NCBI GenBank assembly: GCA_028748685.1
Contig: JAJRDU010000064.1
Span: 1 to 40,310, forward strand
Length of the DNA: 40,310 nucleotides
Direction: 5' to 3'
DNA from: Methylococcaceae bacterium
GTDB lineage: Bacteria; Pseudomonadota; Gammaproteobacteria; Methylococcales; Methylomonadaceae
Below the pieces are notes generated by a model. It worked only from the letters and a program-made list of their open reading frames with translations, was not told the DNA's origin and did not search any database. This document shows, piece after piece, positions 20,384 through 28,279 of this stretch (the first letter of the stretch is position 1; each line of letters begins with the position of its first letter). A program made the translations under genes and the position numbers.

Positions 20384-21337
20384 ATGAGCCACACACTATA
20401 CGAAGCCAATGCCCAACGCGTTCAGCGCTGCGAGTTGGCGGTACCGGGTTCCAATCCCGACATGTTTGAAAAAGCCCTGAAAAGCGGTGTGGATTTTGTG
20501 TTTCTGGATCTTGAAGACGCGGTTGCTCCTGATGACAAGTTGCAAGCCCGCAAAAATGTGATCCAGGCCATCAACGATCTGGACTGGGCAGGTCATGGCA
20601 TCACGCTATCGGTGCGAATCAATGGTCTGGATACCCAATACATGGTGCGCGACGTGGTCGATCTGGTCGAACAGGCCGGCGCCAAGATAGACACCATTCT
20701 TATCCCTAAGGTCGGTGTATACGGCGACGTCTATATGGTGGAAGCCATGCTCAACCAGTTGGAAATGCAGCAAGGCCTGAAAAACAAGATCGGCATCGAA
20801 TGTCTGATCGAAACCGCGCTGGGCATGGCCAATGTCGAAGACATCGCCAAGCAGGGCGCCCTCGGTGGTCGGGTGGAAGCGCTGCACTTCGGCGTCGCCG
20901 ATTATGCGGCCAGCAACCGTGCCCGCACCGTCAACATCGGCGGTCTGAATCCCGATTATCCGGGCGACCAATGGCATGCGGCGATCAGCCGGATGACCGT
21001 GGCCTGTCGCGCTTATGGCCTGCGTCCTATCGACGGTCCGTTCGGCGACATCAAAGACCCGGAAGGATACAAAGCCGGCGCTCGCCGTGCCGCAGCGCTG
21101 GGTTGCGAAGGCAAGTGGGCGATCCATCCCTCGCAAATCGCGCTGGCTAACGAAGTCTTCACGCCGCCGGCTGCGGAAGTTGAAAAAGCCAAACGTATTC
21201 TGGAAGCACTGAAGGAAGCCGCCGCCCAGGGCAAGGGCGCTGCCGCGCTGGATGGAAGACTGATCGACGCCGCTTCCGAGCGCATGGCGAACAACATCGT
21301 CCGGGCAGCCGAAGCGATTGCCGCCAAGACCCGATAA
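20384..21337 (+). CDS. mcl: malyl-CoA lyase (HpcH/HpaI, CitE-like)
   Basis: The 317-residue enzyme cleaves L-malyl-CoA to acetyl-CoA and glyoxylate, closing the serine cycle. The TIM-barrel aldolase/lyase motifs are VFLDLEDAVAPDDK (magnesium and CoA side), CLIETALGMANVEDIA with the metal-binding glutamate, and ALHFGVADYAASN. The C-terminal KWAIHPSQIALANEVFTP is the conserved lid segment. AGGA lies eight bases before the ATG. It heads the operon that continues with the RRM-like gene, mtkA and mtkB; coupling with the thiokinase argues for malyl-CoA rather than citramalyl-CoA as substrate. Confidence 0.95.
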   Translation: MSHTLYEANAQRVQRCELAVPGSNPDMFEKALKSGVDFVFLDLEDAVAPDDKLQARKNVIQAINDLDWAGHGITLSVRINGLDTQYMVRDVVDLVEQAGAKIDTILIPKVGVYGDVYMVEAMLNQLEMQQGLKNKIGIECLIETALGMANVEDIAKQGALGGRVEALHFGVADYAASNRARTVNIGGLNPDYPGDQWHAAISRMTVACRAYGLRPIDGPFGDIKDPEGYKAGARRAAALGCEGKWAIHPSQIALANEVFTPPAAEVEKAKRILEALKEAAAQGKGAAALDGRLIDAASERMANNIVRAAEAIAAKTR

Positions 21338-21391: not shown

Positions 21392-21772
21392 GTGCTAATC
21401 ATCATCAAAAATATTCCATTGGGGCTCAGCAAGCCTATATTGGAAGACCTGCTTAAGACCACCGTTGCCGATACCTTTTGGTTCGGCAAGGGCAGGGTGA
21501 TGGACGTTCACATGGTCCAGGCCGAAAACCGTCGAGGTAAGGTGATCGAATATCACTGCGTGGCGATGATTGAACCGGAAGCAGCCGCGAAGCGGGTGAT
21601 TCGAATTTTGACTGGCCGGCTTATTTTTGGCGTGCGGCTTAAGGTGAGCGAATACGTGGTGCGAAGCTGGTGCAACGACAGGCGGCAAGCTGGAAAATAC
21701 CTGCATTTGGCGCGAGAAAAGCGAGTGCGGGATCGCCGGCGCCACTTGCGAATCAATTCACGCTATTCGTAA
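21392..21772 (+). CDS. RRM-like putative RNA-binding protein in serine-cycle operon
   Basis: The 126-residue product is small and strongly basic. LIIIKNIPLGLSKPILEDLL resembles RNP2 plus helix 1 of an RNA-recognition motif, EYHCVAMIEPEAAAKRVIRI resembles RNP1/strand 3 plus helix 2, and LTGRLIFGVRLKVSEYVVR resembles the loop and strand 4 (N-G-x-x-x-x-G-R-x-L-x-V pattern). An arginine-rich tail (REKRVRDRRRHLRINSR) follows. The classic RNP1 aromatics are mostly replaced, so RNA binding is inference. The only plausible start is GTG at 21392, because an in-frame TAA lies at 21377; the best ribosome site, AGGAGAGG, is 22 bases away. It lies between mcl and mtkA with no terminator. Confidence 0.7.
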   Translation: MLIIIKNIPLGLSKPILEDLLKTTVADTFWFGKGRVMDVHMVQAENRRGKVIEYHCVAMIEPEAAAKRVIRILTGRLIFGVRLKVSEYVVRSWCNDRRQAGKYLHLAREKRVRDRRRHLRINSRYS

Positions 21773-21838
21773 GAACGCTGAAACGGAGCTTTTTCAGTGA
21801 ATAATGTAAACAAATTTTTTTGACTCAAGAGAGATACC

Positions 21839-23056
21839 ATGGACATTCATGAGTACCAAGCAAAGCAATTGCTGGCCGAATACGGCGTCAAGATCGCCGA
21901 AGGCGGACTGGCGTATAGCCCGGAAGACGCCGTACAACGCTCGCGCGAAATTGGCGGCCACGTCTGGGTAGTCAAGGCGCAGATTCATTCCGGTGCCCGC
22001 GGCAAGGCCGGCGGCATCAAGATCTGCAAAACCCACGACGAAGTGCGCGCCGCCGCCGATGAACTGCTCGGCAAGCGTCTGGTGACCCATCAAACCGGCC
22101 CGGCCGGTAAACAATGCCTGCGCCTGTATATCGAAGCCGGGACGGAAATCGCCAAGGAATTGTATTTCAGCTTGTTGATCGATCGTGCCCGCGAACGCAT
22201 CGTGATGGTCGGTTCCGCGCAAGGCGGCATGGAGATCGAGGAGTTGGCCGAGACCAATCCTCAGGCCATCAAGAAAATCTATATCGAACCGGCGGTGGGA
22301 TTGCAGGACTTCCAGGCCCGGAAAATGGCGTTTGCCCTGGGCATCCAGGCCGACCAGATTCAACATGCGGTGAAACTGATCCAGGGATGCTACCGGGCGA
22401 TGCGCGATCTGGACGCCAATATGGTCGAGATCAATCCGCTGGTCATCACCGGTCACGGCGAGCTGGTGGCGCTGGACGCGAAAATGGGCTTCGACGACAA
22501 CGCCTTGTTCCGCCGCCAAAAAATCTCCGAATTGCGCGACAAGACCCAGGAAGACCCCCGGGAAATGGCTGCAGCCGATCGCGGCTTGAGCTATGTGGGT
22601 CTCGATGGCGACATCGGCTGCATGATCAATGGCGCGGGCCTGGCGATGGCGACCATGGACATGATCAAACTGGCGGGCGGCGAGCCGGCCAACTTCCTGG
22701 ATGTTGGCGGCGGTGCCTCTGCCGAGCGTACCGAAAAAGCCTTCCGCATGGTATTGCAGGACAAAAACGTCAAGGCCATGTTGGTCAATATCTTCGCCGG
22801 TATCAACCGTTGCGACTGGATAGCCGAAGGTGTGGTACAGGCCGTGAAGAACATCGATATGAAGGTGCCTTTAGTGGTACGCCTGTCCGGCACCAATGTC
22901 GAGCAAGGCCGTAAAATCATCGAAGAAAGCGGTTTGCCCATCATCACCGCCGACACCTTGGCGGAAGCCGCCGAGAAAGCGGTGCAAGCACGTAATGATG
23001 TGGCAGCGGGTCGCTATCAGCCTCCTGCTTCACGCGACACTATTACTTCCCTGTAA
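21839..23056 (+). CDS. mtkA: malate thiokinase (malate-CoA ligase) beta subunit
   Basis: The 405-residue ATP-grasp subunit works with MtkB to form malyl-CoA from malate, CoA and ATP. The N-terminus [18 protein letters not shown] and [19 protein letters not shown] are typical of the succinyl-CoA synthetase beta family; [16 protein letters not shown] is the magnesium/nucleotide site and [13 protein letters not shown] starts the C-terminal ligase domain (SucC has GGGA-T-x-E-x-V). The difference from SucC and the position next to mcl favour malate as substrate. GAGAGA precedes the ATG. mtkB follows after 18 bases. Confidence 0.93.
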
Positions 23057-23074: not shown

Positions 23075-23962
23075 ATGTCAATTTTTATCGATAAATCCAC
23101 CCGCATCATCGTCCAGGGCTTTACCGGCAAGATCGGTACTTTCCACGCCCAGGATATGATCAATTACGGCTCCAACGTGGTCGGTGGCATTACGCCGGGC
23201 AAGGGCGGCCAGAAACATCTGGACCGGCCGGTGTTCAACACCGTCAAGGAAGCCGTCGAACAAGCCGGCGCCGAAGCCAGCATCGTCTTCGTGCCGCCGG
23301 CTTACGCGGCCGATTCCATCATGGAAGCCGCCGAAGCCGGCATCAAATATTGCGTGGCGATCACCGACGGCATCCCGACCCAGGACATGATGAAGGTCAA
23401 AATCTTCCTGAGCCGTTTTCCCAAGGAGCAGCGCATGGTGTTGACTGGCCCCAATTGCGCCGGCACCATCAGCCCCGGCAAATCGATGCTGGGCATCATG
23501 CCGGGCCACATCTACATTCCCGGCAATGTCGGCATCGTCGGCCGTTCCGGCACCCTGGGCTACGAAGCCGCCGACCAGATGAAACGGTTGGGCATAGGCG
23601 TATCGACCTCTGTCGGCATCGGCGGCGACCCGATCAACGGCAGCTCGCACCGCGACATCCTGGAAAGATTCGAACAGGATCCTGAAACAAAAGTCGTGGT
23701 GATGATAGGCGAGATCGGCGGCCCGCAGGAAGTTGAAGCCGGCATCTTCGCCAAGGAATATATGAGCAAGCCGCTGGTGGCCTACATCGCCGGCCTCACC
23801 GCGCCTAAAGGCCGCCGCATGGGCCATGCCGGTGCGATTATTTCCTCGGTCGGTGAATCAGCGGCGGAAAAAGTCGAAATGCTGAAAGAACTGGGCGTGA
23901 CCATTGCCCCGACGCCGGCGGCGATGGGCGAGACGGTTGCCAAGGTATTGGCTAAACTGTAA
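23075..23962 (+). CDS. mtkB: malate thiokinase (malate-CoA ligase) alpha subunit
   Basis: The 295-residue subunit carries the CoA-binding Rossmann domain (MSIFIDKSTRIIVQGFTGKIG) and the phosphorylated histidine, H251 in RRMGHAGAIISS. GPNCAGTISPGKSMLGIMPGHI and GRSGTLGYEA are the family CoA-ligase signatures. Length matches the SucD/MtkB family. It is the last gene of the mcl-RRM-mtkA-mtkB operon and is followed after 19 bases by a strong terminator. A SucD assignment cannot be excluded by sequence alone, but context supports malate. Confidence 0.93.
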   Translation: MSIFIDKSTRIIVQGFTGKIGTFHAQDMINYGSNVVGGITPGKGGQKHLDRPVFNTVKEAVEQAGAEASIVFVPPAYAADSIMEAAEAGIKYCVAITDGIPTQDMMKVKIFLSRFPKEQRMVLTGPNCAGTISPGKSMLGIMPGHIYIPGNVGIVGRSGTLGYEAADQMKRLGIGVSTSVGIGGDPINGSSHRDILERFEQDPETKVVVMIGEIGGPQEVEAGIFAKEYMSKPLVAYIAGLTAPKGRRMGHAGAIISSVGESAAEKVEMLKELGVTIAPTPAAMGETVAKVLAKL

Positions 23963-23980: not shown

Positions 23981-24010
23981 AAAGCCCGCGTCATGCGGGC
24001 TTTTTTATTT
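23981..24010 (+). terminator. strong intrinsic terminator after mtkB
   Basis: AAAGCCCGC pairs with GCGGGCTTT around a five-base loop and runs into TTTTTTATTTT. It ends the mcl-mtk operon. The track ORF for the SNF2 gene starts inside this hairpin, which argues for its later ATG. Confidence 0.92.
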
Positions 24011-24058
24011 TGGCGGCCGGTTTTCCGCCCACTCGAATTAGTCAAGATCCAACAAACT

Positions 24059-27000
24059 ATGCAAGCCTCCCAACGAGCAACATATCTGGATGCCTACCAC
24101 TCATTGCCCGCCGAGCTGCAAATGCTGGTCAATTTGTTGGCGGTTTATTACGGCTATTGTTCATTGACCAATATCGCCAAGTGTCTGGCGGGTCTGGGCA
24201 TCAAGGAAGGCAATCGTGTGCTGAAACCCGAGACGGTCAAGGCGCGATTGAGGCCATTGATAGCGGCGGGTTTACTGGAAGAAAATGCGCGGCCCGGCGG
24301 CACCCGCTGCGCCCGCACATTGGCGGAGACGATTACTCGGCAATTGGTGAGCGACAAGGAATTCGAGGCTTATGCCGTCTTGGTGCTGCAGTTAAATCCT
24401 CCCGGTAGCGGGTATTACCGTTACAACAGCGCCGACGACTGCATCCGCGAGGCGCGCATTCATTTCCATCGCCGCGATTATCCGAAGACGCAGGAATGCC
24501 TGGAGGCCGGGAGGCGTTATCCGGGGCATTTGCCCGACGCCGTCGACCTCTATCTGTCCTGGTTTCTCAATCCGGTGGACGTTGGCTGGTTCAGGCAAAA
24601 TCATCCCTTGATATTGCGCGAAATGGCGGCTTACGCCTGCTTGCATCAATTGACCTACCTGTATCGGGCGCCCGATCTCGACGCTTTTTTCGAGCAGCAG
24701 TTAGAGGACGGCGAAAGCCGCAATGATCCGCTGTTCACGCGGCTGTTCTTGGAGCTGATGTTATTGCGTGGCGAATGGGAGGAAGTGTCCGCGCTAATCG
24801 TCGACGCCGAGGAACCCGAGTTGCTGGCTATCGCCGCGATGCTGACATTTTTGCGCGGCGATTATGCCGAAGCCGTCAGCGAATACGAAAAAGCCTTGGC
24901 ACTGCTCAGAAAGCTGGCTGGGCAGCGTACCGCTTATTTTCATGGTCTGGCCGGCGTGTTTTATCCACTGGCTATCTTGAAGGCCAATGACGCCAAGACG
25001 CGCACCAAGCTTGCCGCATTGCTGAATCAGGCGATCAAGGCCGGCACCGACTGGAACGGTATCTATCATTGTCTGGTACTGTTTCAGCAGTTTTTACAGG
25101 GCGATTTGTCGGTACGCGACCAGCTGTTGTTCTGGACACCGGCATTCCGGGTGGTCAGTGGCTTTCGGGAAAGTGGCGCGCCGGATAGCGTATTGACTAT
25201 GCCCATGCTGCAGCCGGCGCTGCTGCTGATGATCAAATTTTGGGTCAAGGCCGATTTCGCCAGCAAGATCGACCCGGTCGATCAACAGCTATATACCTAT
25301 CTGTTGAATAACGGTTATCGCTGGCCGGCGGCTGAGATGGCAAAAATATTCATCAGCCTGCAACCGGCAAAGGCGGCTCAGTGGGACAGCCGGTTCTTCG
25401 ATGGGGGCCGCGCGGCGCTGGCCGATTTGTTCGTCAGCCGTGCCGATTGGGAAGTGGCGCTGGATGCCTTGTTGAATTTGCCGGTCGGCGAGCATAAAAC
25501 CGAAATTGTCGGTCAAGCCGAAAAACCCACCCGGCTGGCCTGGCTGTTGAGCTTCGATGATACCCACGACTACATTAAGGCCGAACCGCGCGAACAAAAG
25601 CTGCAAGCCAAGGGTGGCTGGAGCAAGGGCAGGGCTGTGGCCTTGAAACGCCTGGCTCAGGAGCGAGACAGCTTCGATTATCTGAGCGAGCAAGACCAGA
25701 AACTCTGTTCCCATATCAAGGAATATAGAGACAGCGGCTGGTACGGCAGCGGGACTTATTTTGAGTTCGATAGCGGTTTGCCGCAGGCCTTGATCGGCCA
25801 CCCCTTGCTGTTCTGGGCCGATGCGCCGGAGGTTAGGGTAGAAGTGGTGATGGGCGAAGCCGAATTGCGAGTCAAAAAGGTGGAGGGTGGCGACAAGATC
25901 AAGATCAGCCTGGAGCCTGCCCCTATCTACGAACAGAAGTTTCATGTGCTCAAGGAAACCCCGACCCGCTTGCGGGTGGTGGCTTTTACGTCTGATCATC
26001 ACAAGATTTACAGTGTGCTGGGCAGGGGACTGGAGGTACCGGCCTCGGCGCAAGAGCGGGTATTGCAGACCCTGACCAGCATCTCGGGGCTATTGACCGT
26101 GCATTCGGACATCGGTGGCAGTTCCAGTACCGCCGAACAGGTACAGGCCGACGCCGCGCCGCGCATTCATCTGCTGCCGCATGGCGAAGGTTTGCGGGTG
26201 GCGCTGCTGGTGCGGCCGTTTGCCGATGGCGGCGCTTATTTCCAGCCTGGTCAGGGCGGCGAAAGCGTGTTGGCGGAAGTCGACGGCAGACGCGTTCAAA
26301 CTCGGCGTGATCTGAATCGGGAGAAACAGCTCGCGGCGGCCGTGATAGACGCCTGCCTGGCATTGCGGGATGCCGAGCGCGATTCGGCCGGCGATTGGCT
26401 GCTGGACGACCCGGAACAATGTCTGGAATTGCTGTTGCAGTTGCAGGCCTTGCCGGAGGGCCAGACTATGCTGGAATGGCCGGAAGGTGTGCGTTTCAAG
26501 GTGTTGGGGCAAACAGCCGGCAGCGGTCTCAGCATGCGGATCATGCGTGACAATGACTGGTTTGCCTTGCAGGGCGAGCTGACAATCGATGAAGACAATG
26601 TTGTCGAGATCCAGCAATTGCTGGGTCTGCTGGACAAGCGCCAGGGCCGGTTTCTGCAACTCAAGGACGGCCAGTTTATCGCCTTGACCGACGAATTCCG
26701 GCGCCGCCTCGAGGACTTGAAAGCCTATGCCGATCTCAGTGGCAAGAAGGTGCGCGTCAATCCCTTGGCGGCGCTGACCCTGGAAGATTGGCGGGACGAA
26801 GCGGGTTTCAAGGCCGATAAACACTGGCAGGCCCATATTCAGCGCCTGCAACATGCCCGCGATTATCAGCCGCAACTGCCGTCGACCTTGCAGGCCGAAT
26901 TGCGCGATTACCAGCTGGACGGTTATCGCTGGCTGGCCCGGCTGGCGCAATGGGGCGTGGGCGCCTGTCTGGCCGACGACATGGGCTTGGGCAAGACCGT

Positions 27001-28279
27001 GCAAGGGCTGGCTTTGTTGGTCGAGAGGGCTCCAGGCGGTCCTGCCCTGATCGTTGCCCCGACCTCGGTGTGCATGAACTGGGAAAACGAAGCCCGCCGT
27101 TTCGCGCCGACCCTGAATCCAGTCGTGCTGGGAACCAGCGACCGCCAGCGCCTGATGGATAATCTGGCGCCCTTCGACCTGTTGATTTGCAGCTACGGCT
27201 TGCTGCAACAGGAGCAGGTGGCCGAAATGCTGGCGCAAATCCGTTTCCAGACCGTGATTTTGGACGAGGCGCAAGCCATCAAGAACATCGCCACCCGCCG
27301 TTCGCGGGGCGCGATGAATTTGCAGGCCGAGTTTAAAGTGATCATGACCGGCACGCCCCTGGAAAATCATCTGAGTGAATTGTGGAATTTGTTCCGTTTC
27401 ATCAACCCCGGCTTGCTGGGCTCGCTGGAACAGTTTAACCGGCGTTTCGTCGGACCGATAGAGCGGGATAGGAGCGCGGAGGCGCGCTATCGCTTGAAAA
27501 AGCTGATCCAGCCCTTCATCCTGCGCCGCACCAAGACCCAGGTGCTCCAGGAACTGCCGCCGCGCACCGAAATCCCGATTTATGTGGAACTCAGCGCCGA
27601 GGAAATGGCGTTTTACGAAGCCTTGCGCCGAGAAAGCCTAGCGATATTGACCACTGCCAACGTTCAGCCGGGGCAGAAACAGTTGCAGATACTGGCGGCG
27701 ATCACCAAGCTGAGGCGCAGTTGCTGCAATACCCGGTTGGCCAACGCCGACGTGGTTTTGCCCAGCAGCAAGCTGGCGGCCTTCGGCGAAATCGTCGATG
27801 AGTTGCTGGATAACAAACACAAGGCGCTGGTGTTCAGCCAGTTCGTGGATCATCTGCAGCTGATCAAGGACTACGTCGAGCGGCGCGGGATCGCCTATCA
27901 ATATCTGGATGGCGGCACGCCCGCCAAGGAGCGTCAGAAAAGGGTCGACGCCTTTCAGCGCGGCGAGGGCGAGTTGTTCCTGATCAGCCTAAAGGCCGGC
28001 GGCGTCGGTCTGAATCTGACGGCGGCCGATTACGTGATCCACATGGACCCCTGGTGGAATCCGGCGGTGGAAGATCAGGCTTCGGATCGTGCTCACCGCA
28101 TGGGCCAGCAACGCCCCGTGACGATATACCGGTTGGTCGCCAAGCAGACTATAGAGGAAAAGATCGTCGCCTTGCATAGCCATAAGCGCGATTTAGCCGA
28201 CAGCCTGCTGGAAGGTGCCGACATCAGCGGCAAAATGTCTGCGGACGATTTGTTGGGCTTGATGAAGGCGGATGTTTGA
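24059..28279 (+). CDS. SNF2-family DEAD/DEAH-like ATPase/helicase
   Basis: From the ATG at 24059 the protein has 1406 residues. The C-terminal third is a SNF2 motor: YQLDGYRWLARLAQWGVGAC near residue 955, Walker A DDMGLGKTVQ near 975, Walker B variant LDEAQAIKN near 1070, MTGTPLENHLSELWNL, and the second RecA lobe with SLKAGGVGLNLTAADYVIHM, DPWWNPAVEDQASDRAHRMGQ near 1340. The first 940 residues are a poorly conserved alpha-helical and beta region containing TPR-like segments (AVSEYEKALALLRKLAG). Such enzymes translocate on duplex DNA and remodel protein-DNA complexes; the target is unknown. The earlier track start lies within the mtkB terminator. Confidence 0.92.
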   Translation: MQASQRATYLDAYHSLPAELQMLVNLLAVYYGYCSLTNIAKCLAGLGIKEGNRVLKPETVKARLRPLIAAGLLEENARPGGTRCARTLAETITRQLVSDKEFEAYAVLVLQLNPPGSGYYRYNSADDCIREARIHFHRRDYPKTQECLEAGRRYPGHLPDAVDLYLSWFLNPVDVGWFRQNHPLILREMAAYACLHQLTYLYRAPDLDAFFEQQLEDGESRNDPLFTRLFLELMLLRGEWEEVSALIVDAEEPELLAIAAMLTFLRGDYAEAVSEYEKALALLRKLAGQRTAYFHGLAGVFYPLAILKANDAKTRTKLAALLNQAIKAGTDWNGIYHCLVLFQQFLQGDLSVRDQLLFWTPAFRVVSGFRESGAPDSVLTMPMLQPALLLMIKFWVKADFASKIDPVDQQLYTYLLNNGYRWPAAEMAKIFISLQPAKAAQWDSRFFDGGRAALADLFVSRADWEVALDALLNLPVGEHKTEIVGQAEKPTRLAWLLSFDDTHDYIKAEPREQKLQAKGGWSKGRAVALKRLAQERDSFDYLSEQDQKLCSHIKEYRDSGWYGSGTYFEFDSGLPQALIGHPLLFWADAPEVRVEVVMGEAELRVKKVEGGDKIKISLEPAPIYEQKFHVLKETPTRLRVVAFTSDHHKIYSVLGRGLEVPASAQERVLQTLTSISGLLTVHSDIGGSSSTAEQVQADAAPRIHLLPHGEGLRVALLVRPFADGGAYFQPGQGGESVLAEVDGRRVQTRRDLNREKQLAAAVIDACLALRDAERDSAGDWLLDDPEQCLELLLQLQALPEGQTMLEWPEGVRFKVLGQTAGSGLSMRIMRDNDWFALQGELTIDEDNVVEIQQLLGLLDKRQGRFLQLKDGQFIALTDEFRRRLEDLKAYADLSGKKVRVNPLAALTLEDWRDEAGFKADKHWQAHIQRLQHARDYQPQLPSTLQAELRDYQLDGYRWLARLAQWGVGACLADDMGLGKTVQGLALLVERAPGGPALIVAPTSVCMNWENEARRFAPTLNPVVLGTSDRQRLMDNLAPFDLLICSYGLLQQEQVAEMLAQIRFQTVILDEAQAIKNIATRRSRGAMNLQAEFKVIMTGTPLENHLSELWNLFRFINPGLLGSLEQFNRRFVGPIERDRSAEARYRLKKLIQPFILRRTKTQVLQELPPRTEIPIYVELSAEEMAFYEALRRESLAILTTANVQPGQKQLQILAAITKLRRSCCNTRLANADVVLPSSKLAAFGEIVDELLDNKHKALVFSQFVDHLQLIKDYVERRGIAYQYLDGGTPAKERQKRVDAFQRGEGELFLISLKAGGVGLNLTAADYVIHMDPWWNPAVEDQASDRAHRMGQQRPVTIYRLVAKQTIEEKIVALHSHKRDLADSLLEGADISGKMSADDLLGLMKADV

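Follow-up and report, generated by a model that had tools for sequence, protein, structure and literature searches.

A predicted RRM-fold protein with an arginine-rich tail, encoded between mcl and mtkA in a Methylomonas genome, belongs to a scattered multi-copy family

The window analysed here, a stretch of 40,310 nucleotides from a Methylococcaceae bacterium, carries a small open reading frame (ORF) between the serine-cycle genes mcl and mtkA. The initial annotation described its product as an RRM-like RNA-binding protein embedded in the serine-cycle operon, and possibly a regulator of that operon or of C1 metabolism. Two questions follow: does the protein have an RRM fold, and does it belong to the serine cycle? 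Post-transcriptional regulators of methanotrophs have, to our knowledge, been little studied, and a search of the literature for RRM proteins in methanotrophs found none described.

The features of the locus are listed in Table 1. The RRM gene begins 54 nt downstream of the stop codon of mcl (21337), ends 66 nt before the mtkA ATG (21839) and lies on the same strand as both. Judging from this spacing, a single transcription unit of mcl, the RRM gene and mtkA is plausible. The start context of the RRM gene is weak, the nearest AGGAG being about 25 nt upstream of the GTG. Promoter and terminator scans gave nothing above shuffled sequences, the inverted repeat behind the gene being too weak for the terminator scan, and an Rfam search of the window found no element. 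The mcl product matches NCBIfam models (CitE-type lyases and the haloarchaeal malyl-CoA lyase) only below their cut-offs, and the name "malyl-CoA lyase" therefore rests partly on gene context. Directly after mtkB there is a 1428-aa Snf2-type helicase ORF (window 23993-28279), whose scores against NCBIfam helicase models stay below the cut-offs; a similar ORF is also situated 3' of mtkB in the congeners G029 and G004.

Table 1. Features of the mcl-mtkB region in the window
Feature	Position	Strand	Remarks
mcl, malyl-CoA lyase-type CitE/HpcH protein, upstream neighbour	20384..21337	+	Below NCBIfam cut-offs; name partly from context
Gene of 126-aa single-RRM protein with arginine-rich C-terminal tail	21392..21772	+	GTG start, TAA stop; omega, AlphaFold model, fold matches
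Predicted RRM-fold domain, residues ~1-90	21392..21661	+	AlphaFold
C-terminal tail, residues 91-126	21662..21769	+	Near-invariant R91, N95, D96, R98, R111, R115, R116; pLDDT 54-59
Small A/T-rich inverted repeat 3' of the RRM gene stop, CTGAAA...TTTCAG	21778..21800	+	Similar sequence in congener G029
mtkA, malate--CoA ligase beta subunit, downstream neighbour	21839..23056	+	NCBIfam NF010647, 707.7 bits, cut-off 604
mtkB, malate/succinate--CoA ligase alpha subunit	23075..23962	+	NCBIfam search

The small basic reading frame, whose product has a net charge of +15, is real. In G029 the genes mcl, a 126-codon gene, mtkA and mtkB follow each other in the same order, and the GTG start is at the same codon. 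The two RRM proteins have 70% amino acid identity, with dN 0.23, dS 1.28 and omega 0.18, as against an omega of 0.03-0.04 for mcl, mtkA and mtkB between the same two genomes; the dS of the flanking genes is about 0.65-0.9. The RRM gene is therefore a maintained protein gene under purifying selection, not a chance ORF, and evolves faster than its three neighbours. An antisense ORF at 21395-21745 was rejected, as selection acts on the plus-strand frame.

When used alone, the window protein matched nothing in Pfam, NCBIfam or the PDB (phmmer), and a search for related loci with this single sequence found nothing. Neither it nor the other copies in its genome reach the curated score of the Pfam model PF00076 (RRM_1). 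At the level of the family, 14 of the 22 aligned members match PF00076 weakly (best 7.6e-5), a profile of the aligned members matches RRM chains in the PDB with E down to 3.6e-7, and distant gammaproteobacterial members exceed the PF00076 cut-off (39 and 24.6 bits). The AlphaFold model, whose input alignment did not include the loci from the genome searches, is composed of beta1 (residues 2-6), alpha1 (14-26), beta2 (35-46), beta3 (51-61), alpha2 (63-73) and beta4 (84-87), with a block-mean pLDDT of 79-93 over residues 1-90 and lower values beyond. The best 50 PDB fold matches listed are all RRM proteins or assemblies containing RRM proteins, and include AB-Elavl of A. baumannii (7qzp, TM 0.84 by target) and RbpPg1 of P. 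gingivalis (7jly). RRM matches in the viral fold library were weaker and came from giant viruses. The RRM reading of the initial annotation is thus right, because a confident predicted fold, its PDB matches and the reach of the family profiles agree; the beta-alpha-beta-beta-alpha-beta arrangement is confirmed as a prediction. Fold and transitive homology place the protein in the RRM superfamily; it is not counted as a direct member of PF00076.

Residue conservation was tallied after aligning 106 distinct members with the family profile. At the stacking positions RNP2-2, RNP1-3 and RNP1-5 the residues of the window protein are Ile4, His55 and Val57, so that it lacks the canonical aromatic set of RNA-binding RRMs. 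Across the family, RNP1-3 is His in 65 members, Tyr in 34 and Phe in 7; RNP1-5 is aromatic in one of the 106; RNP1-1 is mostly Glu; and for RNP2-2, Phe is found in 47 of the 84 members scored and Ile in 31. Set against these losses, R91 is invariant (106/106) and R98, R111, R115 and R116 are each kept in 101-104 members, so that the strictest conservation falls on the basic tail after strand 4. There the window protein has the family motif RxWxND(R)R ... (K/R)RxxxRR(R). This most strictly conserved part is the low-confidence part of the model.

Because the canonical stacking residues are absent from the window protein, its binding of RNA may be weak, or the RRM domain may bind something else. 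The contrast between the degenerate RNP1-5 and RNP1-1 positions and the nearly fixed arginines would also be expected if the RRM fold had ceased to bind RNA and now mediated protein-protein contacts, the function residing in the arginine tail, and the fusions of family members to a DUF3240-like domain and to a nucleotide-cyclase domain, described below, agree with such a role. We consider this rather unlikely. RNP1-3 stays His, Tyr or Phe throughout and RNP2-2 is frequently Phe, the basic tail would suit RNA equally, and AB-Elavl binds RNA despite its divergent RNP motifs (PMC9313427).

The mcl-mtkA spacer was compared in 37 Methylomonas genomes, 31 of them (including G029) directly and the other six from gene coordinates. 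The RRM gene is found in the spacer of two genomes, that of the window (G000) and G029, and is missing from the other 35. The spacer is about 30-155 bp long in 33 genomes, which is too short for the gene, and is filled by an unrelated 166-aa ORF in two (G004 and G010). The gene thus lacks the conserved linkage to mcl-mtkA of a serine-cycle operon component. Absence from this position in relatives had been named by the initial annotation as grounds for refuting it; these largely apply to the operon-specific role, whereas the predicted structure withstands the test of the fold. In the other mcl-bearing genomes, a comparison of coordinates found no member of the tailed RRM family within 5 kb of mcl. 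The 166-aa ORF (L124:2213-2710) has a lipoprotein-like start (LYLFNTGC) and no Pfam match. Many of the short spacers (L033, L036, L039 and others) contain an inverted repeat, GTAGGTTGGGTT...AACCCAACCTAC. This repeat recurs elsewhere in the genomes, with 1-6 strict matches in five of the seven searched, and looks like a dispersed small element.

In a tree of mcl and mtkA, G000 and G029 are placed apart; an AU test did not reject their being sisters (p 0.075). The shared position may be due either to one insertion with later loss or to two events. The place of the RRM gene between mcl and mtkA is best read, from the comparison of spacers, as a lineage-specific acquisition at a site that varies among congeners. 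Many congeners have inverted repeats in the spacer, of a kind that recurs elsewhere in the genomes, two have an unrelated ORF there and two the RRM gene; the spacer might accordingly be an insertion hot spot where the gene is a selfish or drifting copy without a role. This is very improbable, as the low omega, the intact frame and the identical length in two species point to a maintained protein, and neither a transposase gene nor a repeat was seen next to the RRM gene.

The same comparison bears on the proposal that the protein is dedicated to regulating the serine-cycle operon or C1 metabolism; it might, for instance, bind the mcl-mtk mRNA on which its own gene lies. The common strand and short gaps would suit such a regulator, as would the retention of the position under purifying selection in two congeners at the flanking-gene dS given above, and the mclA gene of Methylomonas sp. 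DH-1 is substrate-responsive, being 2.78-fold up on methanol (PMC6373157). However, in nearly all congeners the spacer cannot accommodate the gene or is filled by another ORF, and the closest relatives of the protein adjoin unrelated genes. We therefore regard this explanation as quite unlikely. On the genomes compared, a dedicated role is unlikely and the operon-specific serine-cycle claim should not be carried forward.

Members of the tailed RRM family occur in 40 of the 101 genomes around the window genome. Methylomonas genomes often have 2-6 copies, the maximum of six being reached in one; the window genome has four. In an even sampling of the Gammaproteobacteria, 30 of 369 genomes were found to have family members. 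An alignment search of 299 genomes across the phylum, a sample that is thin per group, found it only in the organism's own genome. Viral contigs gave no member in a search with the family alignment, so that phage carriage is not suggested. For PF00076 itself, a match that passes the cut-off is present in 225 of 369 gammaproteobacterial genomes sampled evenly, and RRM proteins are hence not uncommon in the class, contrary to what had been supposed. In the protein tree, the window protein and seven others form a supported clade (98/92). The clade members examined have as neighbours genes for minor pilins and chemotaxis, glycosyltransferase and glycolate oxidase genes, cspA together with an FtsX-type permease, or parC, these names being a reading of the translations. 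The family combines a degenerate RRM with an arginine-rich tail, in multiple copies and many contexts, in Methylomonas and other Gammaproteobacteria.

One context recurs as a conserved operon. An RND efflux pump gene and a 101-aa DUF3240 gene stand next to the RRM gene at 14 of 26 loci on genome contigs, and many Methylomonas have two family members after this pair. The first of the two is a fusion, whose C-terminal half is DUF3240-like at or just below the Pfam cut-off. A model of one such fusion has two beta-alpha-beta-beta-alpha-beta-like halves, with moderate to low confidence (pLDDT 66, pTM 0.44). The order of pump (ACR_tran), DUF3240 gene and RRM/DUF3240-like fusion is seen in the window organism's own genome (L121:1617-5998, contig C254) and in L061-L067, L069, L071-L073 and L077-L079, with a second RRM paralogue in some. 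In three genomes of one other genus of the same family of bacteria, the RRM is fused C-terminally to a class III nucleotide-cyclase domain (Guanylate_cyc, PF00211; L161:1955-3319, L162:1614-3146, L163:1581-2945). For clues to function, these associations are worth more than the location among serine-cycle genes. That the tailed proteins are in general RNA regulators coupled to small-molecule signals, with the DUF3240-like partners in the RND efflux operons and the cyclase partners tying RNA control to metal or nucleotide signals, and that the window copy has likewise been recruited to serine-cycle expression, seems unlikely.

The window protein resembles RbpB of Bacteroides, RbpPg1 (PDB 7JLY), AB-Elavl (PDB 7QZP) and cyanobacterial Rbp in being a small protein of one RRM followed by a tail, with the same predicted fold, and these bacterial proteins, like the tailed family, are present in several copies per genome in some hosts. 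It differs from them in that its family has the arginine motif after strand 4 and has lost the RNP1-5 aromatic, and in that the single sequence is missed by PF00076, a model matched by the family profile and the distant gammaproteobacterial members and not by the window protein or its genome's copies. The fold is shared with eukaryotic RRMs such as PABPC1 RRM2, HuR, Rna15 and CstF-64 (TM by target up to 0.84 among the single-domain matches listed), whereas sequence identity to them is 12-23% and the canonical aromatics are missing in the window protein. In Bacteroides, RbpB binds RNA globally (PMC11697453), and RbpPg1 binds RNA, with a zinc exporter transcript as its most enriched target (PMC12119571).

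The explanation that we favour with moderate confidence is that the window protein is a stand-alone RNA-binding protein acting post-transcriptionally, having a degenerate RRM and an arginine tail, and that it came to be encoded between mcl and mtkA through a gain specific to the lineage. RNA would be contacted by the face of the beta-sheet together with the conserved arginine tail; RNA binding and a regulatory role are the most likely functions of the protein. As one copy of a scattered family, found at this position in two of 37 genomes, it is probably a general RNA-binding protein and not a dedicated part of the serine cycle. Given a gain in a variable spacer, the gene would at most be co-transcribed with the malyl-CoA and malate-CoA genes in G000 and G029. 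Of the earlier reading as a whole, the predicted RRM fold stands, while the rarity of RRM proteins in the class and the serine-cycle role do not.

The lineage-specific position may cause the RRM gene to be co-expressed with mcl-mtk. More broadly, a multi-copy RRM family that is mostly missed by Pfam, whose arginine tail is near-invariant and some of whose members are fused to sensory or signalling domains, constitutes a testable set of candidates.
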